Shown here piece by piece: positions 5,565 through 48,520 of a stretch of DNA of 50,246 nt (within the stretch, counting starts at the first letter, position 1; each line of letters begins with the position of its first letter). The notes under the pieces are model-generated. The model was not told the DNA's origin, did no database searches, and saw only the letters and a list, made by a program, of their open reading frames with translations. The position numbers and the translations under genes were made by a program. The DNA comes from Bacteroidota bacterium (lineage in GTDB: Bacteria > Bacteroidota > Bacteroidia > 2-12-FULL-35-15), in NCBI GenBank assembly GCA_947479085.1, contig CANJYB010000007.1, positions 136,432 through 186,677 on the forward strand, given 5' to 3'.

Positions 5565-8500
5565 TTATTTGTTCAGCAGTTTATTGGCTTCTTCCAGCGA
5601 TATTTTTTTACCATCACTAAAAGCCACTATAAATGCATCTTTCAGTTGATCAGATGCTGCCACCTCGTTTTTGGTTTTAGCAGCATCTTCCATGGTTTTA
5701 AAATTACCTAAAATATAAACAGTATATCCGTTTTCGTCTTTATAATTTTTAATACCCTGTTTGGCAATTTTCAAAAAACTATTGGCTATTGGCAAAGGAA
5801 TCATTTCTTTGAATACCCCAATCTGTACTTTAAATACCACACCCGAATCCATTGGTATTTCATTGAATTTGGCAATGGCTTTAATCAGGTTTTGTTTAGT
5901 AGAATCAGGTAATGGCGAAAGCTGCTCTCCTGAAGGAGGAGCTTCGGTATAATTGGCTGTTGGCGTTTGTTCAGCTGAAGAAGGCTTAACTGCATTGGTA
6001 ACTGCTGGTCGGATAACAGGTTCACCCGGTTGGCTGTTTAATACAGGTTCAGAAGGAGTAACGGCTGTAGGTTCCTGGTTGGTGGCCATCTGCTGAATAT
6101 TGGAGGTAAGCTGTTCGATAGAAGAAGGAAGTTTATCTTCGGTGGCTGGAGCCTGGTTATTAGTAGCAGGTTGTTTGCCATTGTTGGAAGAATTTGCCGC
6201 ATTGTTTTTCACCATTTCAGCAATGGTTGGAGAATTTTGCTGAGTACTAGCAGGGATATTTCCAGTAGCATTAGCAGGAATATTTCCGGTAGCAGTTTCA
6301 GAAGCAACCGGTGAAGTAATAACGGGAGCACCTTGGTTTTGAAGCTGTTCTGCCTGAGTTACAGAGATACGTTTACCATTATAATAAGCAGTTACAAATG
6401 CATCTTTATAACCTGCAGCCACTATTGCATTTTTAACTTTATCAGCCAACTTAGGACTTTCGAAACTACCTGAATTGTAGCGTATATAACCATTCGGAGT
6501 TTTTTCAGAAACAAGTTGCGGAATGTTCTTTGCTTTATCTTCTGAAAGTGGTTGAGAGAAAACACCAACCTGCACCGTATAAATTACCTGCCCCGGAGTT
6601 ACAGGAACATAAGTGGTAGTGGAAGTATTGGTTGCAGGTTCATTACCTGTTGTTGAACTCACACCGGGAGTTACGGCCACAGGATTGGCAGGAGTAGAAT
6701 TAACCGGGTTATTGCCGGAAGTTACAGTAGCATTGTTCGGATTTACAGTATTGGTATTAGCAGCATTAGTAGTATTAGTAGCAACTGTATTATTAACACC
6801 CGAAGGGGAGTTATTGGTCACCGTTTGATTGGTATTGGAAGTTGCAGGAACCTCATTACCGCTCTGTTGATTCGAATTACCAGCAGGAGGATTAACAGTT
6901 GATGTATTAGCAACAGGCTGGTTGTTAGTGGCAACCGGTAAAGGCTGATTTACTTCAAAATTAGCAGGGTTATTATTGATTAAAGCAAATGCCTCGGTTA
7001 TAGAAATGCGTTTACCATTTAAGAAAGCCACCACAAAAGCATCTTTGTAACCAAATCCGTTGATTTGTTCTTTGGCTTTCTGGGCGGAGTTGAATTTTAC
7101 AAACATACCGGCAGTATAGCGGGTATATCCTTCCTTGGTGGTTTCGCCAGTGATAGGTTGTATTCCTTCAAACAAGTCCTGAGGAATAGGTTTGGCAAAG
7201 GCACCAATCTGAACTTTAAATACAAGTCCTTCCGGTATTTTCTCATCCAGAGGAATAGGTTTAGTTTCAGAATAAGCCGCTACATTTTTATGTTCATATA
7301 TTTCATTTGGAGCCAGTACTATTGGTTCTGAAATGGTGTTATTGTTGGCAGAAATGGTGGAAGAAGGTTCATTAACAGGATTGTTAGCACCCGGAGCAGT
7401 ATTTCCTAGATTATTGGCATTCACAGCAACCGAATTTTGTTCTTTTTTCAAGGTTTCAACCTTAGCCACTTTTTGTTTGGTCTGATTGGAGATTTCAGCA
7501 GATAATTTTTCGGCATCTGCTATTATTTTGGCATACAGGTTTCTTTCCTCAGGGTCTGCGGTTTTTGCTAACTCTTCTTTTTGCTGAGCAATATTTTTAT
7601 TAATTTCATTGTTCCATGTTTTCAACACCTCCGTTTTAGTCTGTTCTCTTTCTATCGGGTTGGTTATTTTGTCAGCCGATTTTATTTCCTCCACATATTT
7701 CTGATTCAGGCTTGCAAGATTAACGGCAGAGGGTATGTTAGTGTTATTTGTATTGGGTACAGCTGCGTTTGCATTGGGTACAGTTGTGTTTGTATTGGAA
7801 TTTGATGCAGGTACATTAGTGGTTGAAACAGGAGGTTGTGTTCCTGTTGTATTATTAGTCGTGTTATTGTTAGTAGCCTCCGTATTGGCTGCTACAGGTT
7901 GCTGGCTGCCGGTATTGGTTGTATTGGCATTAGCGTTGGTTCCATTGGCAGCAACCGTTTCTGCTTGTTGTTTTTTCAGCGTTTCTACTTTTGCCAAACT
8001 TTCAGAAGTTTGTTTTTTCAGGTCTTTTGAAAATTGTTCCGCTTCCGAAATGCTTTTTGAAATCACCAGCTTTTCATCCTGATCAGTTGTGGTGTTCAAA
8101 TCTGAATATTGTTTTGTCAGGTTTTCTTCAACAGCATTGTCCCAGTTTTTTAAAATATCCGATTTGCTTTGTTCACGTTCCAGTTCGTTGGTCATTTTGG
8201 CAGTTGCTGCCAATTGGTCCTGGTATTTGGAATTGATACTTTCGCTTGGCAAAGCCATTTTTATACGATTGGCAGTTACAGGTGCAGGAGCATTGGTTGG
8301 TTGTGTTGCAGTGTTGTTTGCTGCAGGCGTGGTTGAAGGAGTATTGGCAGCCAATTTTTCTGCTTCCTGTTTTTTTAATGTCTCTATCCTTGCAACGGTG
8401 TCGGTAATCTGTTTTTCTAAATCTTTAGAAGCCAGCTCGCCTTCAGCAATTTTTTGGGTAAACAATTTCTTTTCTTCCGGAAGTGTAATGGTTTTCAATA

Positions 8501-11500
8501 TTTCTTTTTGCTTAGAAACATTTTCTAAAATAGCAGTGTTCCAAGCTTTTAGTATTTCGGATTTGGCTTGTTCATGCTCCGTTTCATTCGCTATCTTTTC
8601 TGTTGTTGCTATTTTTCCCTGGTAAAGAACATTAATGCTCTCTAGGCTGACTATAGCAGGAGCATTTCCGGTTGGGTTGGGTACTGTTGTATTGTTGGTA
8701 ACCTGGCCTGCGTTGGTATTGTTTGCAGGGGAGGTACCTGCATTTTCCGTATTCGTTTTACCGGGTTGTGAAGTTGTGTTGGTTACCGGTTCGCTAGTGG
8801 TGTTGGTTGTATTTGCATTGTTACCCTGATTAGTTACAGCCACACCTCCCTGTTGTTTTTTCAAAGTTTCCACTTTTGCTACCGACTCATTAGTTTGTTT
8901 CTGCAAATCTTTAGAAGCCAGTTCAGCATCAGCAATTTTCTTTGCGTATAAATTTTTCTCTTCCGGGTCGGTAGTTGTTTTTAGTTCTTCTTTTTGTTTT
9001 GTAATTTTTTCATCTATGGCTTTGTTCCATGTTTTTAAAACTTCCGTCTTAGCCTGTTCTCTTTCCACTTCATTTGTTAGTTTAGAAGTGGCTGCTACTT
9101 CGTCTTCGTATTTTTTATTCAACGATTCAAATGTGGTGTTATCTGTTTTGCCTGTTGAGGAAGCTACCGGGGTCCCATTATTTGCGGGAGGATTAGTATT
9201 GGCAGCAGTTACATTTGTGTTAGTTCCTGCCGGGGTTTGATTTGCCGGAGGATTAGCAGAATTGTTGCTAGTTAAATTATTAGCGGGATTGTTGGCAGCT
9301 ACCACTGTGGTGTTTTTCTTTAATGTTTCCACTTTTGCTACCGATTCAGCAGTTTGAGTTTTCAGGTCACCCGAAAGTTTTTCAGCCTCTGCAATGCTTT
9401 TGGTGAATTGATCCTTTTCAGCCTGACTGGCACTGGTTTTTAATATTTCTTTTTGTTTGGCTACATTTTCATCAATTTCCTTATTCCATGTTTTTAATAC
9501 TTCAGATTTGGCTTGTTCGCGTTCTGCTTCATTGGTAATTTTAGTGGTGGCAGCTACCTGGTCCTGGTATTTTTTATTAATAGATTCAACAGCCACAACA
9601 GTTGGTTGAGGGCTAGTTGTTGTTGGAGCATTATTAGCCGCATTTGTATTTGTTGCAGGAGCATTTGTTACAGGGTTTGTACTTGTATTGGTTGCAGGCG
9701 TATTAGTGGCAACCACTGGTTGTGTTGTTGAAGATACCGGAGAATTGGTATTAGCAGTGTTTGAATTAGCAGCAGGTGGCTGGTTTGTATTAGTCGCAGC
9801 AGTCGTGTTATTGGCATTATTAGCAGGATTAGCAGGATTACTAATCCCTGAAATGACATTTGAATTTTCTGTGGTTACTTTTGCTATTTCATTAACTTTT
9901 TGTTCCAATTTCGTTTTATCAATATTGGCAACACTTGCTGCAGCCGCTTCGCTGGTGCCGGTTTTTGAATCAGCAACAACAGATTTAACTAAAGAACTCT
10001 GATTTTTTATTCCTTCGTATTCTTTTTCCAACTGGTCGGCTTTTGCTGTTTTTTTTGCAAGTTCCTTTTCAAGTCCATTGTTGTCCTCGGTTAATTCAGC
10101 AATTTGTTTGGCTAGACCTTGTTTCAAATCTTCTTTTTTTGCTTTCGCTGCGTCTGCTTTTAAAGAGGAAAGTATGGTTTCGTTATCTGCTATTTCCTGT
10201 TTGGTTTCAGTAACCCCTCTTTGTGCTTTAGCTAGTTCCTTTTCCTTATTTTCTTCATCAAGCTTTAAACTCTGTACTATCGAACCTGTAGTGGAGTTCT
10301 CTTTGCTGAGGGCTTCCAGTTTTTTTTGCTGTTCTTCCAGTTTTGAAATGGCATCTTCTGCATTGGTCGATTTTACTGCAGCCTCCAGATCGTTTGCATA
10401 TTGTTTTGATAAGTCAGCTTCCTTTTGTTTGGCAGCGGATACTAAATCCAGCTTTTTTGCAAGGTTAAAAGCAGCCGCAGTTTCATCGTTTAATTGTTGC
10501 GCTAAAGCATTTTTTTCATTGGCCTGTGCCATGATGGCTTGCTTCTTGGTAACATCAGTTGCTTTATTTGCATCAGCCAGTAATTGCGAAGCTTCCTTAG
10601 TCTTACTATCAGCCATCTGATTTTTTTGGTTGGCATAGTTCAATGCAATGTCTGCCTGTTCCTTGGCATCCTTAGCTGCAATATCAATATCTTTTGCATC
10701 ATCTTTCGCAATTTTAACCAATTCCACATTCGATAATTTTGTTTTAGGAGGTTTTCCGTTTGTGGCATTTGCATTATTGGAATTGGAGTTGTTCGAAGCG
10801 ACATTAGGATTGTTATTTACAGGAGGATTGGGAGATGATGAATAATTGGAAGAATAATCACTTACGTTCACTTCCATTCTTGCTTTTTCTCTAATAAAGT
10901 TACTGGCAAGTAAATAATTGGAATCGTCTCCGGTACCTTCAAAAATGGTTTTAAGAACCAATTTATCTTTCTTTGCAGTAAGACTTATTTCCTGGGCAAT
11001 GGGTTTAAATTCATGCTGAACCGGCAAAACAACCACTTCTGATTGTGTTGGCAGGGTAGGAGATTCAATGGTAAAAAGATATTTCCCTCCATTAGGTAAT
11101 TTCATTGAATAGGTTCCATCTGCCGGTGAAGTATTATAAATTCCAAGAATAGAATTATTGTTCAGGTCTTTTACAATGATTTTTAAATCCATTGTATTGT
11201 CTCCCTGACTTTTAATAACAGTACCATTAATAAAGGTCAAATCAATGGGTTTTCTGTCCACATTAATATGGTACACTTCAATCTTGCCACTGGTGCTGGA
11301 ACGCGAGGATGCAAAATAGGCCTGCTTTTCATAAAAATCGGTAACGTATAAAACGTCATCATCAGGAGTATTAATCGGAAAATCTACGTTAACAGGAGTG
11401 CCCCAGGTAAATGTGGTTTCATTCCACGCAGATTTAAAAATGTCGAATCCTCCCATGGAGTTATGCCCCTTTGAACAGAAATACAGAATTTTTCCGTTAG

Positions 11501-12299
11501 GATGTAAAAATGGGAAATCCTCATCATATTCAGTATTTACCGGAGCACCTAAATTCTGAGGGGAGGTCCATTCTCCGTTATCTTTTCTTTTAATGGTATA
11601 AATATCTTTTCCTTTACTTGCATCATCTCCGTAACTGGAAAAAAATATTTGAGAATTGGCAGCGGCACTAAAGATTACTGAGGTTTCCTTTTTCTTTTTG
11701 TCCAATGAAGTTTTAAAAGGTTTGTCTTCCGGTTTTACCAATAATTTCCCGCCAAGGCCAGTAACATCATAGGCACGGAAAAAGTCTTCCCGGCTCATTT
11801 CCTTTTTATCCATTACAATAAGGTCGGATAAGTTACGCAACAATAACTTGCCGTTTTTACACATTTCTATTTGCCTGTCCACTTGTAATTTTTGTGCTTT
11901 AGCTGAAGAAGCAACTTTCTTGTATTCCTTGTATTTTACTATTGCATCATCAAACCGGTAATTGAGATGGTAAGCTTTAGCAAGATAATAAAGTACTTCC
12001 TTATCCACCTCAGGTTTGGTAGAAGCATATTCTAGGAAGCGGATTGGTTTTTCCTTGTCTTCAAAGGAATAAATCATACAAACCCCTAAACGATAATTGT
12101 AATCAGGATCTTTGGGATAAATACTGGTAAGTTGTGAATAAAGAGGGAACGCCTTGTCGAACTCATCGTTTTCGAATAAAGTGCTGGCTTCTTTTTTTAA
12201 ATCAGCTTCGGTAGCAAATTTTTGTTGGGCTTTTAAAATAGAAGTGTTCAGAATCAACACTACAAGTGATAAGTAAATGTAATTAATTCGCTTATTCAT
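5565..12299 (-). CDS. Giant TPR-PD40-coiled-coil-SPOR envelope protein
   Basis: A 2244-residue exported protein. After a signal peptide (residues 1-25, ending K-A-Q-Q) come TPR-like helices (~30-160), PD40 beta-propeller blades (~200-345; Y-F-C-S-K-G-H-N-S-M-G-G-F-D-I-F is the classic motif), a carboxypeptidase-regulatory-like domain (~353-440) and an Ala/Lys/Glu coiled coil (~520-800). Five homologous ~92-residue helical modules then start near 903, 1055, 1220, 1351 and 1528, joined by Asn/Thr/Pro-rich linkers. Three SPOR-like domains follow (~1690-1780, 1903-1985 and 2150-2240), each opening F/Y-x-V-Q-I/V-G-V/A-F. The front half resembles the PD40/TPR part of PorE- and OmpA-type proteins. 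SPOR domains bind denuded peptidoglycan, so it probably spans the periplasm, tethering outer-membrane or T9SS/gliding machinery to the wall. No OmpA domain is visible. A -7 element lies at 12421. Confidence 0.85.
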   Translation of the reverse strand: MNKRINYIYLSLVVLILNTSILKAQQKFATEADLKKEASTLFENDEFDKAFPLYSQLTSIYPKDPDYNYRLGVCMIYSFEDKEKPIRFLEYASTKPEVDKEVLYYLAKAYHLNYRFDDAIVKYKEYKKVASSAKAQKLQVDRQIEMCKNGKLLLRNLSDLIVMDKKEMSREDFFRAYDVTGLGGKLLVKPEDKPFKTSLDKKKKETSVIFSAAANSQIFFSSYGDDASKGKDIYTIKRKDNGEWTSPQNLGAPVNTEYDEDFPFLHPNGKILYFCSKGHNSMGGFDIFKSAWNETTFTWGTPVNVDFPINTPDDDVLYVTDFYEKQAYFASSRSSTSGKIEVYHINVDRKPIDLTFINGTVIKSQGDNTMDLKIIVKDLNNNSILGIYNTSPADGTYSMKLPNGGKYLFTIESPTLPTQSEVVVLPVQHEFKPIAQEISLTAKKDKLVLKTIFEGTGDDSNYLLASNFIREKARMEVNVSDYSSNYSSSPNPPVNNNPNVASNNSNSNNANATNGKPPKTKLSNVELVKIAKDDAKDIDIAAKDAKEQADIALNYANQKNQMADSKTKEASQLLADANKATDVTKKQAIMAQANEKNALAQQLNDETAAAFNLAKKLDLVSAAKQKEADLSKQYANDLEAAVKSTNAEDAISKLEEQQKKLEALSKENSTTGSIVQSLKLDEENKEKELAKAQRGVTETKQEIADNETILSSLKADAAKAKKEDLKQGLAKQIAELTEDNNGLEKELAKKTAKADQLEKEYEGIKNQSSLVKSVVADSKTGTSEAAAASVANIDKTKLEQKVNEIAKVTTENSNVISGISNPANPANNANNTTAATNTNQPPAANSNTANTNSPVSSTTQPVVATNTPATNTSTNPVTNAPATNTNAANNAPTTTSPQPTVVAVESINKKYQDQVAATTKITNEAEREQAKSEVLKTWNKEIDENVAKQKEILKTSASQAEKDQFTKSIAEAEKLSGDLKTQTAESVAKVETLKKNTTVVAANNPANNLTSNNSANPPANQTPAGTNTNVTAANTNPPANNGTPVASSTGKTDNTTFESLNKKYEDEVAATSKLTNEVEREQAKTEVLKTWNKAIDEKITKQKEELKTTTDPEEKNLYAKKIADAELASKDLQKQTNESVAKVETLKKQQGGVAVTNQGNNANTTNTTSEPVTNTTSQPGKTNTENAGTSPANNTNAGQVTNNTTVPNPTGNAPAIVSLESINVLYQGKIATTEKIANETEHEQAKSEILKAWNTAILENVSKQKEILKTITLPEEKKLFTQKIAEGELASKDLEKQITDTVARIETLKKQEAEKLAANTPSTTPAANNTATQPTNAPAPVTANRIKMALPSESINSKYQDQLAATAKMTNELEREQSKSDILKNWDNAVEENLTKQYSDLNTTTDQDEKLVISKSISEAEQFSKDLKKQTSESLAKVETLKKQQAETVAANGTNANANTTNTGSQQPVAANTEATNNNTTNNTTGTQPPVSTTNVPASNSNTNTTVPNANAAVPNTNNTNIPSAVNLASLNQKYVEEIKSADKITNPIEREQTKTEVLKTWNNEINKNIAQQKEELAKTADPEERNLYAKIIADAEKLSAEISNQTKQKVAKVETLKKEQNSVAVNANNLGNTAPGANNPVNEPSSTISANNNTISEPIVLAPNEIYEHKNVAAYSETKPIPLDEKIPEGLVFKVQIGAFAKPIPQDLFEGIQPITGETTKEGYTRYTAGMFVKFNSAQKAKEQINGFGYKDAFVVAFLNGKRISITEAFALINNNPANFEVNQPLPVATNNQPVANTSTVNPPAGNSNQQSGNEVPATSNTNQTVTNNSPSGVNNTVATNTTNAANTNTVNPNNATVTSGNNPVNSTPANPVAVTPGVSSTTGNEPATNTSTTTYVPVTPGQVIYTVQVGVFSQPLSEDKAKNIPQLVSEKTPNGYIRYNSGSFESPKLADKVKNAIVAAGYKDAFVTAYYNGKRISVTQAEQLQNQGAPVITSPVASETATGNIPANATGNIPASTQQNSPTIAEMVKNNAANSSNNGKQPATNNQAPATEDKLPSSIEQLTSNIQQMATNQEPTAVTPSEPVLNSQPGEPVIRPAVTNAVKPSSAEQTPTANYTEAPPSGEQLSPLPDSTKQNLIKAIAKFNEIPMDSGVVFKVQIGVFKEMIPLPIANSFLKIAKQGIKNYKDENGYTVYILGNFKTMEDAAKTKNEVAASDQLKDAFIVAFSDGKKISLEEANKLLNK
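7440..9595 (-). repeat. Five ~92-residue modules within the giant SPOR protein
   Basis: Approximate modules: 9315-9595, 8855-9135, 8360-8640, 7970-8250 and 7440-7715. Each begins S-I/L-N-x-K-Y, has E-R-E-Q-x-K-x-E/D-I/V-L-K-x-W near residue 20, and ends A-K-V-E-T-L-K-K. The linkers between them are low-complexity Asn/Thr/Ala/Pro. Confidence 0.85.
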
Positions 12300-12563: not shown

Positions 12564-13148
12564 CTAATGAATCATTGTGCCATCAATCATTTTGTAAATC
12601 TTCTTTCCATGTTTTTTATGAACCATGAACATAGAAGTATCCAGGAGAAAAAGAAAGCCACCCTGCATAATTAAGGAATTTCCCCAACCGTTCCATTTTG
12701 CAGCGTTTGGTATATCACTTTTTGCTTTTTCTGTTAAATATAATCCAATAGAAGAATAAACTAAATCAAGAACAGCATTGGAGATGTATATGGTTTCAAC
12801 ACTATGTTGCGCTTTAAGCGAACCAATAAAATCAAGATTGTTCTTTTGTTTGGGTAACAAACTTGCTGCTACAATAGCTATGTTTACGCTATTCCACATC
12901 ACATTCATCTGGTTAAAATACTCATCACTCCCATGAGAATTATAGTACCCGTAGCTGCTTGCCCCCACATTGGCAACAGACCATACACCTAAGGCCTTCA
13001 GCCCGTTGGAAGTTATCCTGTTACGAGACTTGTTAAAATCAAAGAGTTTTGAATTCAAACTGGCTGTATCCTGAACTGGATTTATCTGGCAAAAGGTAGT
13101 TTCAGCTAAAAGGATAGCGATGATAACACTTAGTATACTTTTTTTCAT
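12564..13148 (-). CDS. Uncharacterised membrane protein, last gene of the carotenoid operon
   Basis: A 194-residue protein with a cleavable-looking signal segment (residues 1-20, ending F-C-Q) and two or three later hydrophobic stretches (about 85-100, 118-138 and 158-175). The middle region alternates small residues and aromatics (N-x-G-A-S-S-Y-G-Y-Y). Its start codon overlaps the stop of the lycopene cyclase/CruF gene as ATGA, so the two are translationally coupled. It resembles Bacteroidota proteins grouped as DUF6992, an assignment from memory. A role in carotenoid placement in the envelope is inferred only from the operon. Confidence 0.6.
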   Translation of the reverse strand: MKKSILSVIIAILLAETTFCQINPVQDTASLNSKLFDFNKSRNRITSNGLKALGVWSVANVGASSYGYYNSHGSDEYFNQMNVMWNSVNIAIVAASLLPKQKNNLDFIGSLKAQHSVETIYISNAVLDLVYSSIGLYLTEKAKSDIPNAAKWNGWGNSLIMQGGFLFLLDTSMFMVHKKHGKKIYKMIDGTMIH

Positions 13149-14485
13149 TTTTGTTTTTTTAGGTTCATTCTTTTCTTAAACTCTTCGTACAAGGTAACCA
13201 CTAATAGAATCTGTAACATTCCATAAAACACATCTTCCAAAGGTATAGTATATAATCTGATTCCAAGCATTTGGGAATTGTTATATATTAATACCGGCAT
13301 GGCAGTGAGCACTCCGTTAACTAGAAAAAACGGGAGTAGACATACCAACCAGGTAATGTAAAACCTTCCAAGGTAAGTAGACTTTAATAAAAACTGATGT
13401 ATTAATAGAAATATGCCTAAGAGTAAAAATGTACTGAATGTGTACATTTTATTATAATAAATAAAGGAAACAATTATTAATGCGAAAGACAAAAACAAGG
13501 TAATGTATTTTGATTGCGATGCTAAAATGTCTTTTTTTATAAAATAATGAAGTACCTCATAAATAAAAACGCAGGCAAAAGGAATGACAATAAAAAACAG
13601 CCATTCTTCGAAGGGTAGGTCGAAGAAAATTTTACCGACTACATAGTCAGGATTAAATTTCCAGATGCCGATATTAACAAACCATACATCGCCTGCAATA
13701 AAAATAACCGAGGTGATCAATATGGCTGGAAAAAGATACTTCCAAGTTTTATAAAACTCCAGCCGGTGTTCAAAACTTTGAAGGATAGGGTAGGCAAGGG
13801 TCGCGATTAGCAAAAAAGAATAAGTATAATGTTTCATCTCAAGCACTAAACCTTCCCTGTTAAAATAAAAGAACAGAAATTGATTGATAAAAAGAATAAT
13901 TGCGAAACGATTATTCTTTTTAAAATCAAACCGATTAAACCCAAGCAGCAATACAAATGAAAGAATAAACCAGGCGATGTAGTTCTGTAAAGGAATAATA
14001 GAATTGTTCCATGCCCAGAAATCATAATTCATGGCTACAGGTTCAATAAAGAAATCGAGGAACACAAGTAGTCCTGCACCTAAAAAGCTTTTGATAACGA
14101 TGTTTGTTTTTAACCCGCTGAAAATGGAACCGGCAAAACAAATGAGCATCAACCAGTTTACGCCTATCATTAAGGGTATATCAAAAAGTTTAAATCCTAA
14201 GGTATTTCCATATTTATATTCTCCGAAAATTACTCCTGTTTTAACACCCACTACTTCGACCAGGAAGCCAGATAGAAAAACAGCCAAACAAAAGAAAATA
14301 AACTTACTGCTGAATTTATCGTAATTAATAAAAAGTAAAATGGTACTTAACAGTAAACTGAAAGGAGTAAGGGTAAGGAATAAAGCCTGGTAGGTAGAGT
14401 GAATGCCGATAAACCCCACCAGGTTAACTATTACAAGTATGGCAGTGGTTACAAAAAGCCGTCTATCTTTTTGTGAGAGTGACAT
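13145..14485 (-). CDS. Fusion of CruF-type carotenoid hydratase and two-module lycopene cyclase
   Basis: A 446-residue polytopic membrane protein. Residues ~25-205 match the Caroten_synth/CruF family: E-V-V-G-V-K-T-G-V-I-F-G-E-Y-K-Y, then G-V-N-W-L-M, and later F-I-E-P-V-A with W-A-W-N-N. CruF enzymes hydrate the 1,2 double bond of acyclic carotenoid ends. Residues ~235-440 match the CrtYc/CrtYd-type lycopene cyclase, with one module ending L-P-F-E-E-W-L-F-F and a second with I-P-L-E-D-V-F-Y-G; the acidic pairs are typical of that family. Together they could make a monocyclic carotenoid hydroxylated at its open end. The gene is 2 bp after the preceding unknown gene's stop and ends in TGA overlapping the next ATG. 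The domain split is clear; the exact product is inferred. Confidence 0.82.
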   Translation of the reverse strand: MSLSQKDRRLFVTTAILVIVNLVGFIGIHSTYQALFLTLTPFSLLLSTILLFINYDKFSSKFIFFCLAVFLSGFLVEVVGVKTGVIFGEYKYGNTLGFKLFDIPLMIGVNWLMLICFAGSIFSGLKTNIVIKSFLGAGLLVFLDFFIEPVAMNYDFWAWNNSIIPLQNYIAWFILSFVLLLGFNRFDFKKNNRFAIILFINQFLFFYFNREGLVLEMKHYTYSFLLIATLAYPILQSFEHRLEFYKTWKYLFPAILITSVIFIAGDVWFVNIGIWKFNPDYVVGKIFFDLPFEEWLFFIVIPFACVFIYEVLHYFIKKDILASQSKYITLFLSFALIIVSFIYYNKMYTFSTFLLLGIFLLIHQFLLKSTYLGRFYITWLVCLLPFFLVNGVLTAMPVLIYNNSQMLGIRLYTIPLEDVFYGMLQILLVVTLYEEFKKRMNLKKQK

Positions 14486-14487
14486 TT

Positions 14488-14982
14488 CTAATTGTTTTTT
14501 GGGGTCTTCGAACGATTTTCACCATTCATAACTGCATCAATATTTCTTCTCAGTGTTGCATCTTTTACTGAATTCAAATTAGCAAGAATGTATTTTTTAT
14601 CTGCCGGAGCCTGTTTATTGTAACCCAATACTTTTGGAGAGTTGGTTTGAATAGTATAACGTAAAAACCGAAGTTCTACATTATTACTGTCTTTAGCAAT
14701 GCATTGTTCTATCTGATTTTTCCCATCTTTAAATTTTTGCATTTTCTCTTTGTTGTTAGAAGAATGTTTGGCCATTGCAGCCGATATAGCTCCCTTATAG
14801 CATAATATAGTATTGTCATTACCTTTGTAAAGAAGCGCCTCTTTTTCAAGCAATGCTACCTGGACGCTGTCTGTATTAAGGAAATGAAATTCCTTTCGTA
14901 ATTTCTCTAAAGATATATTCTGAGAAAAGGAAACGACATAAAAAAGCAATAACACTAATAAAACTGGGAAAGCTTTTTTCAT
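14488..14982 (-). CDS. Uncharacterised secreted protein in the carotenoid operon
   Basis: A 164-residue protein with a signal peptide (M-K-K-A-F-P-V-L-L-V, ending S-F-S-Q at ~21). The mature part is helical, with repeat-like stretches (Y-K-G-A-I-S-A-A-M-A-K, then N-N-V-E-L-R-F-L-R-Y) suggestive of a short TPR-like fold, and a charged C-terminus. Its start overlaps the crtB stop as TAATG, so translation is coupled. Nothing identifies a reaction. The periplasmic location, between phytoene synthase and cyclase genes, makes it an interesting candidate accessory factor. Confidence 0.7.
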   Translation of the reverse strand: MKKAFPVLLVLLLFYVVSFSQNISLEKLRKEFHFLNTDSVQVALLEKEALLYKGNDNTILCYKGAISAAMAKHSSNNKEKMQKFKDGKNQIEQCIAKDSNNVELRFLRYTIQTNSPKVLGYNKQAPADKKYILANLNSVKDATLRRNIDAVMNGENRSKTPKNN

Positions 14983-15821
14983 TATTTTATCAGGTTAAAA
15001 CTATGTTTTAAATAAGAGCGAACAAAGAGTAAATACTTTTTGGAATCGGGTATGCGAATCCTTGTTGAAATAACCTTTTCAGCAGGAGTGTTTTGAATTT
15101 TATTAAACAGGGAATAATAATAGATATAGGCAAGGTACACTCCAAAGCGGGCTTTCTTTGGCAGGTTTTTTATTCCTCTTAATCCTGCGTCAAAATCTTT
15201 TTGAATGTCTTTTTCTATTTCTCTTTTTGTTTCAGCATTAAATTTTTCCAGTTCAAACCCAGGGAAATAAGCTCTTCCAAGAATATGGTAGTCTGCTTTT
15301 AAATCTCTGAGGAAGTTGATTTTCTGAAAAGCTGAACCTAATTTCATGGCATCATGTCTCAATTCATCGTATTGTTTCTGATTGCCTTCCACAAATATTT
15401 TCAAACACATTAATCCTACTACTTCTGCAGAGCCTAAAATATAGTCCTCATAAGTAGCCTGGCTGTGTTTGCTTTTATCAAGATCCATTTCCATGCTTCT
15501 CAAAAAAGTATCAATCAGTTCCATATCGATATTGTATTTGTTTACAGTATCTTGGAAACTATGAAGTATAGGGTTAAGGCTTATTTTTTCGGAAATAGCA
15601 TCATGAGTATCCTTGATAAAACGTTTCAGCAATTCCTCTTTATTGTGGGTATGAAAGGTGTCTACGATTTCATCAGCAAACCTTACAAAACCATAAATGG
15701 CATGTATCGGCATAATAAAATCTTTATGAAGCAGGCTTACCCCCAAAGAAAAGGAAGTACTGTAATTGCAGGTAACCAACTTACTGCACTTGTAACACAC
15801 ATCACTGTATAAATCTTTCAT
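14982..15821 (-). CDS. crtB: Phytoene synthase
   Basis: A 279-residue squalene/phytoene synthase-family enzyme that condenses two geranylgeranyl diphosphates to phytoene, the committed step to carotenoids. The first aspartate-rich site is R-F-A-D-E-I-V-D (~48-55). The second is the N-F-L-R-D-L-K-A-D-Y segment (~174-183), preceded by K-L-G-S-A-F-Q. The S-x-S-F-S-L-G-V motif at ~22-30 is the family's N-terminal substrate motif. Length is normal. It lies 29 bp after crtI and overlaps the next gene by 1 bp. Confidence 0.96.
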   Translation of the reverse strand: MKDLYSDVCYKCSKLVTCNYSTSFSLGVSLLHKDFIMPIHAIYGFVRFADEIVDTFHTHNKEELLKRFIKDTHDAISEKISLNPILHSFQDTVNKYNIDMELIDTFLRSMEMDLDKSKHSQATYEDYILGSAEVVGLMCLKIFVEGNQKQYDELRHDAMKLGSAFQKINFLRDLKADYHILGRAYFPGFELEKFNAETKREIEKDIQKDFDAGLRGIKNLPKKARFGVYLAYIYYYSLFNKIQNTPAEKVISTRIRIPDSKKYLLFVRSYLKHSFNLIK

Positions 15822-15850
15822 CTTAAAAGCTAAAATGCTAATACCTTTTG

Positions 15851-17329
15851 TTATTCTTTAACTCCGAATTTCTTATTAATTTCCTTTGCCACTACCTGTC
15901 CGGAAATAATGGAAGGCGGAACACCTGGTCCCGGAACAGTCAGTTGACCTGCATAATACAGGTTACTAACTTTTTTGTTTTTTAATGATGGTTTTAAAAT
16001 AGCTGTCTGCATTAATGTATTGGCTAATCCATAAGCATTGCCACCAAATGAATTGTAATCGTTTTTAAAATCCTTTATGGCATAACTTTTCTTTACTATC
16101 ACAAAGGGTTTTATGCTTTGCCCTGTAAGATGTTCCAATCGGTCCATCATTAATGTATAATACTTTTCCCGAATTTCTTCCGTATCTTCTATGTCAACTG
16201 CAATCGGGATTAAAAGTACTAAATTTTCCTTTCCTTCAGGTGCCACTGTCTTATCTGTTTTGGAAGCGCAGGTAGAGTAGAAGAGAGGATTCTTAGGCCA
16301 TTGTGGTCTGTCATATATTTCTTCAGCATGTTGATCAAAGTCAGCATCAAAAAATAAATTATGATGTTCCAGTCCTTCTATTCGTTTATCAATTCCAATA
16401 TAATACATCAGGCAGGAAGGAGCCATCTTGCGCGACTTCCAATAGCTTTCTGTATAGTTACGATATTTTTGCTCCAATAGATTTTGTTCAACATGATGAT
16501 AATCGGCTGCACCAATTACAATATCGGCTTTATAAGTAACTCCGTTTGAAATCACACCGGTGGCCTGTCCGTTTTCAATAATTATTTTTTCAACGGTTTC
16601 ATTTGCCTTTAATTTTACTCCCTGTTTTTGAGCTACATTTACCATTGCTTCGACAATCTTAAACATACCACCCATAGGATACCAGGTACCAAGAACAATA
16701 TCGGCATAATTCATCATACTGTATAAAGCCGGGGTTTCATTTGGTTTGGCCCCAAGGAACAATACAGGGAATTCCAAAAGTTGTACCAATTGAGGATTGG
16801 TGAAATGTTTCTTAATATATTTGCTGATGGATTTGAATAAATCCATTTTTACAACTGCATTCAATATTCGGAAGTCGATGAACTCGAGAATGGAAAGACT
16901 TGGTTTGTGAACAAAATCGCTCATACTCACATTGTACTTATATTCTGCATCCGCAAGGAATTTTTTAAGCGGAACACTGCTTCCCTTTTCATGTTTTTCA
17001 AATAACTGATAAAACTCATTCAGGTTGGCCGGAATACGCATTACATCATCTTTTCCGAAGAATACAGCATAAGAAGGGTCCAGGCGAACAAGGTCATATT
17101 GTTCAGCTACGGTGGTATTAAATTCTTTAAAATAGTTTTCGAACACATCAGGCATCCAGTACCAGGAAGGTCCCATATCGAAGGTAAACCCATCTATCTC
17201 TAGCTTTCGTGCACGCCCGCCCGGCGAAGCGTTTTTTTCGAGTAAGGTAACATCAAATCCTTTTTTGGCAAGCGAGGTGGCTGCAGATAATCCGGCAAAA
17301 CCAGCTCCTATTACTACTACTTTTTTCAA
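15851..17329 (-). CDS. crtI: Phytoene desaturase (FAD-dependent, CrtI type)
   Basis: A 492-residue carotenoid desaturase. The N-terminal Rossmann motif V-V-I-G-A-G-F-A-G-L-S-A-A binds FAD, followed by L-L-E-K-N-A-S-P-G-G-R-A. The C-terminal FAD site is Y-Y-A-G-Q-L-T-V-P-G-P-G-V-P-P-S at ~462-477, the CrtI signature. It introduces the conjugated double bonds that turn phytoene into lycopene. Its ATG follows the rpe stop directly with no gap, and crtB follows. The number of desaturation steps cannot be told from sequence. Confidence 0.96.
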   Translation of the reverse strand: MKKVVVIGAGFAGLSAATSLAKKGFDVTLLEKNASPGGRARKLEIDGFTFDMGPSWYWMPDVFENYFKEFNTTVAEQYDLVRLDPSYAVFFGKDDVMRIPANLNEFYQLFEKHEKGSSVPLKKFLADAEYKYNVSMSDFVHKPSLSILEFIDFRILNAVVKMDLFKSISKYIKKHFTNPQLVQLLEFPVLFLGAKPNETPALYSMMNYADIVLGTWYPMGGMFKIVEAMVNVAQKQGVKLKANETVEKIIIENGQATGVISNGVTYKADIVIGAADYHHVEQNLLEQKYRNYTESYWKSRKMAPSCLMYYIGIDKRIEGLEHHNLFFDADFDQHAEEIYDRPQWPKNPLFYSTCASKTDKTVAPEGKENLVLLIPIAVDIEDTEEIREKYYTLMMDRLEHLTGQSIKPFVIVKKSYAIKDFKNDYNSFGGNAYGLANTLMQTAILKPSLKNKKVSNLYYAGQLTVPGPGVPPSIISGQVVAKEINKKFGVKE

Positions 17330-26044: not shown

Positions 26045-29000
26045 ATGATTCGTAATACAAAACTCCTGATAAGAAAACTCATTTTTCTTATATTCATTAT
26101 TTTATTTTTGGGATGGCAAACCTTATCTGCCCAATGTACCGTTACTATAGTTCCTAATAGTCCCGTTAGTATTTGCAGAGGAGATTCTGTTATGCTTACT
26201 GCCTCCGGTGCCAACACCTATAGTTGGAGTAATGGTGGTAGTTTAAGTTCGCCAACCGCTGCAAGTGTAATGGCATCTCCAAATTTTACAACAACTTATA
26301 CGGTTACCGGAAATTGCGGTGGTGGAAATAATGGACAAGCACAAATACAGGTTGTCGTTCATCCAAAACCGGTTGCAACATTTGTCTTTGGCCCTAATAA
26401 TGCCTGCTCAGGTACTGCTGTTAATTTTACTTCCAATGTTGTGAACGGTACTCCACCTTATTCCTATTCATGGACATTTGGAGGTGGTGGTACTTCCACT
26501 GCTGCAAACCCCAGCCATACTTTTACTTCTGTTGGATGTGGATCGGTTAATCTTAACAATACGTTGATTGTTACAGATGCGAATGGATGCCGGGATACGG
26601 TTTCTAATCCAATAACCGTTTTGCAGGCACCCGATGTTCAGTTGGCTGATGCAAATGTTTTAAGTCCGTTCAGTAATTGTTTGAACAACCCTTCTCAATC
26701 GAATCCCAATGATACCATTGTGGTGAATAATATTTCACCAAGTGCAGGTTGTATCACTACTTATAATATCAATTGGGGAGATGGAAATATTCAGAATGGA
26801 TTAACAGGAGCTGTATTTCCTTTGCAACATATTTATACTTCTCTTGGTGCTTTTAATATAGTGGTAAATGCCATCGGTGCTAACGGCTGCACCGGTTCAT
26901 CCACTTACCTGGTAGCTAACCAAAGTAATCCGGCCGGTGGTCTCTCCACATTAGGAAGTACAGCAGGTTGCGGTCCGATAACATTACCTTTTTTGATTAA
27001 TAACTGGCAAAGCAATTCACCCGGAACAACCTATAACCTTGATTTTGGTGATGGTACTTCAGTGCTTCTTACTCATCCTTTGAATCCGGGATTAACACAA
27101 GATACGGTTTATCATACCTACACCACATCTCCTTGTCCTGCCACTCCATCTTTTACTGCCATACTTACTGTAACTAATGCCTGTTCTAGTACTGCTTATA
27201 CGGCATCAAATATTCAGGTAAGGACAAGACCTATTGCAAACTTTACTGCAACACCAACTCCTGCCTGTGTGGGTGTTCCTGTTTGTTTTACCAATACCAG
27301 TGCAGCAGGTTACGGACCTAATTGTTCAACAGGAACGATATATGCATGGAACTTTGGAGATCCAGCATCGGCTGGTCTTAACACATCTGCTGCAGGAACT
27401 CCTCCCTGCCATTCTTTTGCAACTGCCGGAACTTATACCATTTCATTATCCACTTCCAATGGTTGCGGTTCTAAAATATTACACAACAGGTTTGTGTAAC
27501 ACCTACACCAACTCCGGCATTCACTTTAAATAACAATACCGGATGTGCTCCTTTAAACGTAAATGCTACAAATACTTCCAACACATTGAATAATTGTGTG
27601 GCTGCAACTTATTTATGGACCATTACTTATACTGCAGCTCCTCCCTGTGCGGTATTCTCTTCTTATAGTTTTACCGGTGGAACAACTGCTACTTCCACTA
27701 ATGCTTCGTTTTCATTTGTTAATGCAGGAACCTATACCATTACGCTTGCTGTAACGAATCCTTGCGGAACGTTTACCACAAGCCAGAATGTCGTGGTAAA
27801 AGGTCCTCCGATAGTTACGGTAACTCCTGTACCTAATTCATGCGGACCTGCAAGCGTTTCACCAACATCAAACGTAATCAATTGCGGCACCAATGCACCG
27901 GTATATGCCTGGACTTTTGGTGGTGGGGTACCTGCTAATTCAGCGGTTGTCGCCCCACCTGCTGTTTCATTTGCGGCAAACGGTAATCATACTATTTCTC
28001 TTTCAGTTACCAATGAATGTGGTTCAACACCTGCCAATACTTCATTTAATGTTAATCCATTACCGGTGGCCAATGCAGGACCAAATGTTTCCATTTGTGC
28101 AGGAGTACCTACCAATCTTTCAGGAAGTGCCGCAGGTGGTACACCGGGATATTCTTATGCATGGACAAGCAACCCTGCAGGATTTGTTTCTGCATCGCAA
28201 AACCCTTCTGTTTCTCCTATCGTTACTACTACCTATTCATTAACCGTTACCGATGCCGGTTTATGTACTTCAACTGCACAGGTGGTGGTAACTGTAAATC
28301 CATTACCGGTTGTTACTGTTAATTCACCAACCATTTGTATTGGAGGAACTGGAGTTCTGACTGCCGGTGGCGCAAATACCTATCTATGGTCAACAGCATC
28401 AATATTAAATCCTATAAATGTAAGTCCTGCAATTACTACCACCTATACAGTTACAGGAACAATTACAGCTACAGGTTGTTCGGCTACTGCTACAAGCACG
28501 GCTACTGTGAATCCATTACCTATAGTAAATGCGGGACCAAGTATAACACTTTGTAATCAGCCGATTCCTTATAACTTAACCGGTTTTTCTCCGGCTGGCG
28601 GAACATGGAGTGGAGCAGGGGTTACAGCAGGTGGTGTGTTTACTCCTTCTGTTGCAGGGAATTTTACACTTACTTATTCATATACCAATCCTGCAACTAC
28701 CTGTAGTAATACAGATACCATGATTGTGACAATTGTAGCACCACAGACTGCCAATGCCGGGACAGGATTTACAGTTTGTTCAAACGCAGCAACTGTTGCA
28801 CTTGCCGGTTTTAGTCCTGCAGGTGGAACATGGACAGGAACAGGAATAGCAGGTAATTCTTTTAATCCTGCAACTGCAGGTGCAGGTGCATTTATACTTA
28901 CTTATACGTTTGGTACTGGTACCTGCGCATCTTCAGATACTATAATGGTGACGGTGAATGTACCACCAAATGTTACTGTTAATTCATCTACAATATGTGC

Positions 29001-32000
29001 AGGACAAACAGCAACACTCACCGCAAACGGAGCAAATACTTATGTTTGGTCAACAGCCGCTGTTATTAACTCGATTTCGGTAAGCCCTGTTGTAACTACA
29101 AGTTATACCGTTGCAGGTACCACCACATTAACAAGCTGCACCAATACTGCTGTTAGTACTGTTACTGTAAATCCTTTACCGGTAGTAAATGCCGGACCAA
29201 GCATAACGCTATGTAATCAACCGATTCCTTATAACTTAGCGGGTTTTTCTCCGGCAGGAGGAACGTGGAGTGGGGCAGGGGTTACAGCTGGAGGTATATT
29301 CACTCCTTCTGCTATCGGTAATTTCACTCTTACTTATACTTTTACTAATGTTGTAACCACATGTAGTAGTTCAGATACTATGATTGTAACTGTCATAGCT
29401 GGTCAAACAGCTAATGCAGGTACAGGCTTTCCTATTTGTTCGAATGCAGCTGTTGTAAACCTTACAGGTTTTAGTCCTGCCGGGGGAACATGGTCAGGAA
29501 CCGGAATAGCAGGAAATACATTTAATCCTACCAGTGCCGGATCAGGTAATTTTATACTCACTTATTCGTATGGTGCTGCCACCTGTTTATCAACGGATAC
29601 TATAATGGTAACAGTAAATCCTCAGCCAACGGTGAATGTAAATTCTCAAACCATTTGTGCAGGACAAACAGCCACACTTACTGCTACCGGAGCGACAACT
29701 TATCTTTGGTCAACGGCTTCTGTTTTAAATCCAATAACGGTAACACCTGCCGCAACCACAACTTATACAGTAACAGGAACCATAACAGCCACCGGATGCA
29801 GCAGCACTGCCACAGGAACTGTAACAGTAAATCCATTGCCAATAGTAAATGCAGGAACAGGAGTAACCTATTGTAATCAATCATCAACTATTACCTTGGC
29901 TGGGTATTCCCCTGCAGGCGGAACATGGACAGGAACAGGAATAATAAATGGTGCACTCGGAACATTTAACCCTTCTGTCCCAGCGGTTGGAACTAACATA
30001 TTAACATATACATTTACTAATGCAAACGGTTGTATAAACTCTGATAATATAATCAATACCATTGTACTTCCTGTGTTTGCTAATGCCGGGCCGGATGATA
30101 CCATTTGTTTGAACAATGGATTATTTAATTTAACTGGTTGGTCGCCATTAGCAGCCACCTGGACCGGAACAGGTATTACCAATCCTTCAGGAGTATTTAA
30201 TCCTGCTGTTTCGGGAGTTGGAACATTTACCCTTACCCTTACTTATGGAACTGGTACCTGCTTAACCACTGATACGAAAACGATAACTGTTCTTGCTTTG
30301 CCGGTTATTATTCCCGGGGCAAATGAGAATACCTGTATCAGCACAGCTGCATATAACTTAACCGGTTTTTCTCCTCTAGGTGGAACCTGGTCAGGAACGG
30401 GTATTACCAATGGTGCTCTTGGAACATTTAATCCTGCAACAACTGGTGTTGGAACGTTTACATTAACCTATACATACACGGACCCAGTAACTACCTGTAC
30501 TAATACGAATACAAAAACAGTAACTGTGGGTGCACTTCCGGTGGTTGCATTTACTAACAATGCGATTGATTGTATAAATAACCCCGTTACTTTTACTAAT
30601 AATACAACTGGAGCTACAACCTATTCATGGAATTTTGGTGATGGAGGAACCTCTATTGCAACAACACCTTCGCATACTTATACCACTCCCGGAAATTATA
30701 CTATCCATCTTATTGCTTATTCACCACTAGGTTGCAGCGACTCTATAACCAACACTATCCAGATAAATAATGTTCCCGTTTCCAATTTTACTACCTTTCC
30801 TGATGTAGGTTGTGCTCCATTGAATGTTTCCTTTACCAATAATTCAACAGGAGTAATAACCACTTATGCATGGAATTTTGGAAATGGAAATTCTTCTGCA
30901 CTTGCTGCGGCTCCCAATCAAACCTATTTGCAAGGCTTATACGATACCACTTATGTGTTTACTTTAACAACTACCAACTCATGCGGTTCGAATACATTTA
31001 CTGATTCTGTGCTTGTTCATCCTACTCCTGTTGTTAATTTCGGAACGAATGTAAATTCAGGATGTTCTCCTTTTAACTTATTAGTGAATAATAATTCTAC
31101 AGGAAATTCTTCCCAGTTCATCTGGGATTTTGGTGATGGTTCTCCGCTTGTAAATACAGCCAATCCTGGCTTCCATACCTATACGACCGGAGCTACGGAT
31201 ACTACTTATATAATTACATTGGTGGGTATTAATCTTTGCGGTTCAGATACGGTAACTCATTCTATATTGGTGATGCATAACAGTGTTACTGCTTTTTTTA
31301 ATACTACACCTGTTTCTGGTTGTGCCCCTCATACAGTAACATTTACCGATGTTTCCACCGGAGCTACCTTTGTTTCGTGGGATTTTGGTGATGGAAATGT
31401 TTCCACTCAGCTTAACCCTGTGCACACCTATCTGAATGCCGGAACGTACACTTGTTATGAATATGTAAACAATGGTTGCAGTTATGATACTACATCCATA
31501 GTTATTACCATTCACCCATCTCCTTTATTAGCTTTTGCTCCTGATATGCCTGTAGTTTGTGCCAATCAACCGATAACATTTATCAACAGTTCTACTAATT
31601 CGGTTAATTATAACTGGAACTTTGGTGATGGAACAACCTCTAATCTTACCAGTCCTGTTCATCTGTATGCTGCAGGTGGAACCTATACGATTACCCTGGA
31701 GGGCACATCTGCTTCTTTTGGTTGCCTTGATAGTATAACGCAAACATATACTGTTAATTCTCTACCAGTTCCCAATGTCTCTTCCAATGTGGCTTTCGGA
31801 TGTTTAGTATTGGCTGTTAATTTTACCAATACCAGCAGCAATGCTACCTTTTATACCTGGGATTTTGGAGATGGAAATACTTCCACATTACCTGCACCAT
31901 CTCATACCTATCCCAATACAGGTATTTATGATGTAAACATGGTGGCAATTAATCTTAACGGTTGTACTGATTCAATGCAATTGCAGATTAATGTATATCC

Positions 32001-33009
32001 TAACCCGACTGCGAATTTTACAGTAGGTGCTCCTTACGGTTGTTCATTACCTTCAACGGTTAGTCTTACCAACACATCCACAGGTGCTGCCGGATATTTA
32101 TGGGATTTTGGAAATGCAGTAACTTCCACTTTAGTTAATCCTACTGCTACCTATATTGCAAATAACCCTTACACCATAACTTTGATTGCTACCAATACAT
32201 TTAATTGTGCGGATACTGCAACTAATAGCTACACTGTTTTTCAACCACCACAAACTTCGTTTACTCCTGATGTAGTAAATGGATGTCAGCCTCTTGATGT
32301 TGTATTTACTAATCAAACGGTGAACGGAACCAATTATATATGGAATACTGGGGATAATAATACTTATAATACTACCGGGGTAATACATACTTATCCAAAC
32401 CCGGGAGTATATACGGTTACGTTAATTGCAACCAATACCACACCTTGTGCTGATACAACTATACTTACTAACCTGATTACAGTTTATCCCCGACCAACCG
32501 CAGGCTTTTCAATCGACCCGCAGGAAACAAATATTTTAACTCCTGAAGTTACAGTAGTTGATCATAGCACCGGAGCCAATACCTGTGAGATGTATTGGGG
32601 AGATGGGACAATAGATTTGACATGCAATAATTTGCATAAGTACACTACAGATGGAACATACACGGTGATGCAGGTAGTTTCCAATTCTGATGGATGCAGT
32701 GATACGGCTTATCATACAGTGACCATCCATCCTGTATTTACTTTTTATATTCCCAATGCCTTTACACCAAATGGCAATGGAGATAATGATGAGTTTTACG
32801 GACAAGGTACCGGCATTAAATCTTTCCAGATGGATGTATACGATCGTTGGGGAATGAATTTATTTCATACCAATGATATTAATATCCATTGGGATGGAAG
32901 GGTAAACGGAAACTATGTTCAACAGGATGTTTATGTTTACAGGGTGGTGCTTACCGATGTGTTTGAAGACGAACATAAATATAAAGGTACGGTGACAGTG
33001 GTTAGATAA
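26045..33009 (+). pseudogene. PKD/Ig-repeat surface adhesin with type B T9SS domain, frameshifted
   Basis: One long gene split into two frames: 26045-27499 and an open continuation to 33009. At 27473-27476 an AAAA run breaks the frame; one extra A would give S-K-N-I-T-Q-Q-V-C-V-T-P and a 2321-residue product. The N-terminus is a signal peptide ending T-L-S-A-Q. Then come many PKD domains (W-x-F-G-D-G motifs at ~90-aa spacing), Ig-like modules with T-I-C-A-G-Q and C-S-N-A-A, and a gliding-motility-associated C-terminal domain (F-Y-I-P-N-A-F-T-P-N-G-N-G-D-N-D...Y-D-R-W-G), which directs export by the type IX system. It resembles SprB-type adhesins. The break may be real, phase-variable or an error. 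Confidence 0.8.
28301..30290 (+). repeat. 660-bp coding super-repeat inside the adhesin
   Basis: Three copies with exact 660-bp spacing (220 codons): the T-I-C motif at 28321, 28981 and 29641, and the N-A-G start of the second module at 28531, 29191 and 29851. Each copy comprises one Ig-like module and two A/B modules. Copies 1 and 2 are close at DNA level, the third more diverged. Confidence 0.8.
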
Positions 33010-48115: not shown

Positions 48116-48294
48116 ATTTTGAGTTTTAAAGATTAGTGATGCAAATATGGAAAAAATATTAATACAAAACACATTGATGAGCAAAATAATTGCTTCTATC
48201 GTGCCCCACAGCACCCCGAACAGGTTAATTTCCCTTTCCGGAAGCGACTTTTAGTCCATAATAGCCTGTCAAAAGTGTCGGATATGCCACCCGT

Positions 48295-48520
48295 AACTTT
48301 CGGATAGGGCTTCCGCACACTGCAACATGCCATTCCTAACTTTTGGATAGGGCTTCCGCACACTGCAACATGCCATTCCAAACTTTCGGATAGGGCTTCC
48401 GCACACTGCAACATGCCATTCCTAACTTTTGGATAGGGCTTCCGCACACTGCAACATGCCATTCCTAACTTTTGGATAGGGCTTCCGCACACTGCAACAT
48501 GCCATTCCAAACATTTGGAA
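48295..48520. repeat. 43-bp tandem repeat array
   Basis: Five full 43-bp units begin at 48295, 48338, 48381, 48424 and 48467, plus a partial sixth. The units are nearly identical (core ggatagggcttccgcacact), with only a few bases alternating. Because 43 is not a multiple of three, the apparent frames through it shift every unit, which shows it is non-coding. A degenerate half-unit lies at ~48270-48294. Confidence 0.9.

Follow-up and report, generated by a model that had tools for sequence, protein, structure and literature searches.

The DNA analysed here (the window) is a stretch of 50,246 nucleotides from contig CANJYB010000007.1 of the Bacteroidota bacterium assembly GCA_947479085.1, and it carries a gene for a very large protein that ends in three predicted SPOR domains. 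The gene occupies positions 5565–12299 on the minus strand; its translation runs from the ATG at 12299 to a stop codon as a single 2244-residue frame with zero internal stops, while the plus strand across the same interval holds many. The order of parts is a signal-peptide-like start, a TPR domain, PD40 blades, a carboxypeptidase-regulatory-like domain (CRD) fold, a helical and linker arm of ~1200 residues, and the three SPORs, S1 to S3. The original prediction, made from the sequence alone, had described this frame and layout correctly, without giving the strand. In an alignment of 24 orthologues, which are 23–64% identical to the window's protein over the alignment, the N-terminus and the SPORs are conserved and the middle is poorly so. 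A Pfam scan of the window's protein returned PD40 at residues 251–288 (27.9 bits; cut-off 20.9), SPOR (PF05036) at residues 2178–2225 (22.4 bits; cut-off 21), the best stretch lying within S3, and a sub-threshold TPR_14 match (18.7 bits against 23.5). Pfam alone thus shows a single blade and a single SPOR in this sequence, so the remaining SPORs rest on other evidence.

S1 comprises residues 1676–1775, including a conserved PIP lead-in (window positions 6975–7274; this and all features of the protein given below are on the minus strand), and is the best-conserved portion of the C-terminal region; it was delimited from alignments and an AlphaFold model. S2 (residues 1900–1988; 6336–6602) is placed by the same two means and by a profile of S1 only, which picks it up at E 9.2e-27, and S3 (residues 2150–2244; 5568–5852) by Pfam, alignments and AlphaFold. 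Pfam SPOR is found at E≤0.01 in 20 of the 24 orthologues, with a best value of 2.3e-12. When 11 of the 24 aligned members were used to make a joint profile of S1, S2 and S3, its top match in the PDB, at E 3.4e-5, was CwlC, whose SPOR domain has been solved. The predicted secondary structure of each block is that of an RNP-like fold (beta-alpha-beta twice), with a short first helix. An AlphaFold model of residues 1520–2244 (mean predicted local distance difference test score, pLDDT, 63.9) shows three separate SPOR-like folds at pLDDT about 78–92 per 10-residue block, preceded by a three-helix module and joined by linkers mostly below 50. Foldseek ranks the RlpA SPOR/glycan complex 6i09 first in the PDB for this 725-residue model (prob 0.97), albeit as a weak match (E 0.18, TMt 0.56). 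VIA-align returned mostly helical matches to the module before the SPORs (H5, below), and 6ozd covers the S3 part (Z 8.1). The Pfam matches in orthologues, the match to CwlC, the predicted folds and the conserved glycan-contact residues described next together identify all three terminal blocks as predicted SPOR domains, and profile search and structure prediction both agree with what the original prediction had proposed for them.

In SPOR domains of known structure, RlpA Q270 is described as a conserved contact, and a basic patch is formed by RlpA R302, R309 and R311, FtsN R285, and CwlC K47 together with K42 (PMC6895207). A profile alignment with CwlC sets the Gln column of the new family opposite the Gln of the VQIGAF strand, and its Arg column opposite the Lys counted as residue 47. 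The window's protein has Gln1697 and Arg1727 at these columns in S1, the equivalent Gln1910 and Arg1940 in S2, and Gln2159 without the Arg in S3. Across all 24 aligned orthologues the Gln of the VQ(I/V)G motif is present in S1, S2 and S3; the Arg of the RY motif is present in S1 and S2 in 24/24 and missing in S3. A wider set of 80 named loci, the best 80 of 443 relatives that S1 patterns found among 596 stretches, gives the same picture for the first two domains: counting the window's protein, the first SPOR has the Arg in 81/81, and the middle SPORs have the Gln in 80/82 and the Arg in 78/82. The first-SPOR Gln belonged to the scan pattern and carries no evidential weight in this set, where the invariance of Gln, Gly, Ala and Phe in the first SPOR is partly by construction because the loci were found through S1 patterns. 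As judged from these alignments, the residues through which solved SPOR domains touch denuded glycan are retained in S1 and S2. Because the terminal blocks have SPOR folds and the contact residues of S1 and S2 are conserved, a wall-binding C-terminal end, as had been proposed for this protein, is likely.

The N-terminal part begins with a signal-peptide-like segment (residues 1–25; 12225–12299) that ends LKAQ before a further Q, the family consensus likewise ending in AQ; this is a reading by eye made without a prediction program, and the 19-residue Kyte-Doolittle windows of the window's protein all stay below 1.6. The segment has no lipobox, and a simple pattern finds a lipobox-like motif in 4 of 67 family heads; no transmembrane-like window past the N-terminus is seen in 66 of 67 family proteins. 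The TPR domain (residues 31–154; 11838–12209) was assigned from alignments and from VIA-align, where its model matches chain 8ye5_B with Z 16.4 and a root-mean-square deviation (rmsd) of 2.4 over 119 aligned residues, designed and natural TPR proteins ranking below. Its Cys74 and Cys147 are invariant in alignments of 24 and 26 proteins and possibly form a disulfide. About three PD40/TolB-like beta blades follow (residues 159–350; 11250–11825), recognised by Pfam PD40, an alignment of paralogues and a VIA-align match of residues 186–349 to the TolB/Pal entry 2hqs_B (Z 10.9, rmsd 2.7, 128 aligned). Blades 1 and 2 of PorE are missing from the window's protein and from 4/4 family members when these are aligned with four PorE-like paralogues encoded in its genome, among them a 789-residue protein discussed below. 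The CRD beta sandwich (residues 354–452; 10944–11240) was placed from AlphaFold strands; among the 24 members Pfam recognises it as CarbopepD_reg_2 in two and as CarboxypepD_reg in one, and as neither in the window's protein. The N-terminal AlphaFold model, made with the family alignment (mean pLDDT 76.5), shows the TPR, the blades, the CRD sandwich and long helices at 524–812. Foldseek also paired this model with chains of dynein and of Tc toxin (E≤0.001), matches that we rejected for an rmsd above 40 Å. The NCBIfam model T9SS_PorE (NF052230) matches residues 216–427 with 89.5 bits (profile 291–493 of 648), far below its cut-off of 600, so that the front half does resemble PorE-type proteins, as first suggested.

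Between CRD and S1, at about residues 480–1675, lies an arm composed of a stretch of long helices (289 residues), five helical modules and linkers, in keeping with the earlier description of some 1200 residues of helical modules and Asn/Thr/Pro linkers. AlphaFold helices define the long, coiled-coil-like region (residues 524–812; 9864–10730). The modules are H1 (residues 900–998; 9306–9602), H2 (1058–1150; 8850–9128), H3 (1216–1312; 8364–8654), H4 (1350–1446; 7962–8252) and H5 (1525–1622; 7434–7727), the last of which has a three-helix fold in the AlphaFold model. They are 93–99 residues long with pairwise identities of 38–66%, and Asn, Thr and Pro make up 38–60% of the linkers. We discarded a PDB hit of one stretch of the middle to Mediator subunit 9 (E 5.6e-4), taking it for a resemblance between low-complexity Asn/Thr sequences.

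Some part of the protein is matched in 41/41 relatives searched, several of these matches being PorE-like heads alone. All 24 aligned orthologues have three SPORs by a family hidden Markov model (HMM) built from 11 of them; S3 of one member, L047, is truncated in the 24-protein alignment (A1), the full protein has three SPORs, and a further alignment (A3) has the right coordinates. Two syntenic relatives have no SPOR by the same HMM: for L067, hhalign supports a degenerate SPOR-like domain at the C-terminus (prob 94), and for L068 it gives no support for such an end (prob 1.4). Among the 80 named loci, a contig end truncates the frame in 11, and the other 69, measured from stop to stop, are 1500–2363 residues long, the 1500-residue frame (L105) being without a head. 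Three SPORs are present in 62 of these complete frames, four in 4 and two in 3, and family HMMs recognise the TPR in 68, the blades in 68 and the CRD in 66. The locus of Acidiluteibacter ferrifornacis, L153, has two SPORs by the HMM. Several of the 24 aligned proteins and the 80 named loci share contigs. A tree of the SPORs of 21 proteins (63 domains; every third three-SPOR protein and the window's own, with few columns) has S1, S2 and S3 each split off by one branch (SH-aLRT 72, 93 and 94); this separation indicates that the triplication is old and predates the sampled radiation.

Of 197 genomes drawn from across the class, 156 match the S1 profile at 1e-6. Strong matches (1e-28 or better, a threshold picked after inspecting the match list) occur in 80 of the 197, from 23 of 61 family codes, and the best match lies in a frame of 1488–2601 residues in 71 of the 80 and in a shorter frame (356–1257 residues) in 9. 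Among the carriers, as titled in their records, are metagenome-assembled genomes of Flavobacteriales, Vicingaceae, Crocinitomicaceae and Salibacteraceae, together with Acidiluteibacter ferrifornacis strain S-15. This is a conserved family found across the class and not unique to the window. An NCBIfam scan of the 24 members matched PorE in 23, CHU_0125 in 20 and one chaperone family in 1, and no dedicated model for the SPOR-tailed family was seen in it. The original prediction put the architecture forward as one not known to be described, and our searches of the open-access literature likewise showed no account of a TPR-PD40-CRD-arm-triple-SPOR protein; the design is nevertheless not peculiar to this locus, given the class-wide family and the 789-residue relative.

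The same genome encodes further proteins related to one or other end of this one. A full-length PorE-like gene lies elsewhere (529 bits over profile 8–647 of 648, below the 600 cut-off), and such a gene is found in 31/41 relatives at 1e-150, with 2/41 over the 600-bit cut-off. The 789-residue paralogue (L070 9275–11641; G000:C33:33274–35640) has TPR, PD40, CRD, a Gly/Thr linker and one SPOR (Pfam, 28 bits); it shares with the window's protein the TPR-like N-terminus, PD40, the CRD-like part and a low-complexity linker leading to a SPOR, and differs in having a single SPOR, a short linker and a fuller PorE-type propeller. Related frames of the genus (666–947 residues) have a SPOR end in 11 of the 12 fetched, the twelfth being a 426-residue fragment. 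Three SPOR-ended proteins of 629, 614 and 784 residues are clustered at L071 (6642–8528, 8589–10430 and 10463–12814; G000:C8): the 629-residue protein has a Pfam SPOR match of 24 bits, the 784-residue protein matches DUF6089 and SPOR, and the 614-residue protein was found with the window's protein as query. By eye, the 614- and 784-residue frames have barrel-like N-termini and thrombospondin-type-3-like repeats. At L072 (G000:C3, about 194–206 kb), five PorE-like TPR/PD40 frames stand in tandem, one with an in-frame TAA.

Around the gene, clpS follows downstream on the same strand within 666 nt in 62 of the 80 named loci, 79 of the 80 having at least 700 nt of downstream DNA. An M48 peptidase gene lies less than 4 kb away in 40/80, plsY upstream in 18/80 and a Pfam-less protein of ~1500 residues upstream in 26/80, the upstream DNA reaching at least 1200 nt in 61 loci and 6 kb in none. 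The ~1500-residue protein (L061 9692–14215; G000:C9:53995–58434) is found in 40/41 relatives at 1e-30. Thioredoxin and DUF58 genes follow instead of clpS in the window, L045 and L046, and DUF58 only in L044; L067 and L068 keep clpS, NfeD and FloA downstream. We take the linkage to clpS, M48, NfeD, FloA and plsY to show orthology and not function. Six of the 25 fetched regions, each of them from the window's genus, have upstream, past a divergent gene, a PorP/SprF gene (TIGR03519, 132.8 bits against a cut-off of 90.55; PF11751 also over cut-off) and a gene for a cargo-like PKD protein with a type-B sorting domain of the type IX secretion system (T9SS); the pair also occurs at 6/80 named loci, whose contigs are partly shared with the 25 regions. 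In L048 (13947–18192) and its relatives the SPOR gene has this pair two to three genes upstream. The same search found no such pair in the window, the only sorting-domain-like match there being in another gene.

Directly upstream in the window, on the same strand, positions 12564–17329 hold what reads by eye as a carotenoid-type cluster, with phytoene desaturase- and synthase-like open reading frames and one membrane cyclase-like open reading frame; 12564–13148 is DUF6992. Two consecutive PKD-repeat-like frames (26045–27499 and 27586–33009) lie 86 nt apart and are possibly one gene split by a frameshift, and the end of the second resembles a T9SS type-B sorting-domain protein. Tandem repeats occupy 502–769 and 48294–48519 (a 42-bp unit in 6.4 copies and a 43-bp unit in 5.3 copies, 96% match).

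That the protein is a wall tether is well supported. Beyond this we favour, tentatively and with slightly less than even confidence, a soluble scaffold in the periplasm, which would connect outer-envelope machinery with the wall in a Tol-Pal- or PorE-like manner and be drawn, probably to the septum, by its SPORs. Such a scaffold would be exported through Sec; its TPR/blade/CRD head would make protein contacts, as the PorE-like and TolB/CpoB-like folds suggest, and the long flexible arm, helical and disordered, would join the head to the C-terminal SPOR cluster. SPOR domains are described as binding denuded (peptide-free) glycan, which is enriched at the septum, and all known SPOR proteins as acting in division or morphogenesis (PMC6895207). 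With their glycan-contact residues retained, S1 and S2 should attach the arm to wall freshly trimmed by amidases; three Amidase_3 matches in the genome exceed the cut-off. Amidase-trimmed wall is the septum in known cases, so accumulation at the division site would be expected, and there the protein would link the partner of its head to the wall, much as PorE has been proposed to act as a Tol-Pal-like system fused into one chain. A bolder version, in which a large part of the Bacteroidia uses the protein as a one-chain, septum-targeted replacement of Tol-Pal, with a PorE-derived, TolB/CpoB-like head bound to the outer envelope and a triple-SPOR tail that reads amidase-trimmed wall, seems to us doubtful.

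Several observations weigh against the septal scaffold. We infer its localisation, its glycan binding and the partner of its head from the domains. The RlpA match is weak (E 0.18), and no SPOR chain appears among the 50 VIA-align rows for the C-terminal model, a result that by itself speaks neither for nor against SPOR folds. The sequence has no lipid anchor or barrel, so any contact with the outer membrane must run through a partner. The recurrent neighbours clpS, M48 peptidase, plsY, NfeD and FloA give no hint of division. The last SPOR, in the 80 named loci and the window's protein, has the Gln in 62/81 and the Arg in only 4/81, and S3 is for these reasons a doubtful binder. One might go further and suppose that all these SPOR folds now serve a different ligand and bind no glycan, as the state of the last SPOR and the degenerate SPOR-like end of L067 would suggest; the retention of Gln and Arg by S1 and S2 in 24/24 aligned orthologues makes this improbable. 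The presence of other secreted or outer-membrane-type SPOR-ended proteins in the genome (789, 629, 784 and 614 residues) allows a general, non-septal anchor, with SPORs serving where other bacteria use OmpA domains and holding an envelope complex all round the cell. The SPOR ends on 11/12 fetched orthologue frames of the 789-residue protein favour such an anchor too, although SPORs are described as binders of denuded glycan at the septum (PMC6895207) and S1 and S2 keep the key residues; we consider it unlikely, if a serious alternative.

The original prediction had suggested a long periplasm-spanning tether or ruler for the T9SS or gliding machinery; the tether is well supported, and the other two parts fare less well. 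An accessory role, tethering the T9SS/gliding apparatus to the wall, draws on the relation of the head to PorE, which is reported to be required for the T9SS in P. gingivalis (PMC5053529), and the PorP/SprF and cargo-like neighbours at 6/25 regions and 6/80 named loci lean the same way and so away from the septal scaffold. However, among the 25 regions that pair is confined to the window's genus and absent from the window, the named loci having less than 6 kb of upstream DNA, and a separate full-length PorE-like gene is present in the genome. SprA occurs in 79/80 genomes with a strong S1 match and likewise in 113/117 without one; being nearly universal (192/197 class genomes, on the assumption from identical handles that the S1 and SprA scans cover the same 197 genomes, with 21 S1-unmatched genomes unlisted), it is uninformative as a co-occurring gene. 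We hold a T9SS/gliding role to be quite unlikely, though the PorP/SprF neighbourhood keeps it a live alternative. A molecular ruler that fixes the distance from outer membrane to wall would account for a CRD-to-S1 spacer with a mean of 1174 residues and a coefficient of variation of 0.14 across 67 proteins despite poor sequence conservation, but the spacer ranges from 843 to 1498 residues and its length is fitted as well by Brownian drift as by a constrained (Ornstein-Uhlenbeck) model (Akaike information criterion −109.7 and −109.6, respectively), 24 of 200 Brownian simulations giving at least the observed Ornstein-Uhlenbeck gain. Moreover, the arm would not be taut, since much of it is linker predicted with low confidence, and we regard a ruler as very unlikely.

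What is new here is a proposed tether of the PorE kind that would join the outer membrane to the wall through several SPORs. The family also provides a case of a PorE-type head in a protein that has no OmpA end. For the cohesion of outer membrane and wall during division in Bacteroidota, where tol-pal loci are described as not found (PMC12204202), the SPOR-tailed family offers a concrete, conserved candidate. On the septal reading, S1 and S2 should bind denuded glycan and direct the protein to the septum.

PorE (PG1058) is described as consisting of a TPR, a PD40/TolB-like propeller with five blades within residues 167–433, a CRD and a wall-binding domain (PMC5053529), the last an OmpA_C-like domain whose structure was solved with a wall fragment (PMC7192894). 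The window's protein has its TPR, PD40 blades, CRD and wall-binding end in the same order. It departs from PorE in carrying three SPORs on a ~1200-residue arm, in lacking an OmpA domain and a lipobox, and in having about two blades fewer, so that neither the five-bladed propeller nor the lipoprotein character of PorE is found in it. OmpA is absent from the 14 Pfam families found at E≤0.01 across the 24 members, 20 of which have SPOR. Given these differences, and since the genome has another gene that is PorE-like over its full length (529 bits), the SPOR-tailed protein is, by its domain content, not PorE, and this second gene also speaks against its being a replacement of PorE. CHU_0125, a Pal-like protein of Cytophaga hutchinsonii whose deletion is reported to damage outer-membrane integrity (PMC5891637), has a related blade and CRD region (NF053607, 87.5 bits over residues 205–421); unlike the window's protein, which falls short of the model's cut-off of 620, CHU_0125 is called OmpA-like by NCBIfam.

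FtsN, DamX, DedD and RlpA carry a single SPOR apiece. Like the window's protein they have their SPOR behind disordered linkers, with a conserved Gln and a basic residue, and an N-terminal transmembrane anchor is described for the majority of SPOR proteins (PMC6895207). The window's protein differs from these four in its signal-peptide-like start, its large folded head and its three SPORs. We also propose a functional parallel to Tol-Pal. The Bacteroidetes are described as having no identifiable tol-pal loci, and PorE has been proposed to be a CpoB-TolB-Pal fusion (TPR, TolB-like propeller, CP and OmpA) that tethers the outer membrane to the wall and may traffic to the septum (PMC12204202). At the fold level, in comparisons that covered TPR proteins and TolB, the SPOR-tailed protein has a TPR, TolB-like blades and a probable wall-binding end, although it combines these in a single polypeptide with a partial propeller, SPOR instead of OmpA, and no known motor partner.

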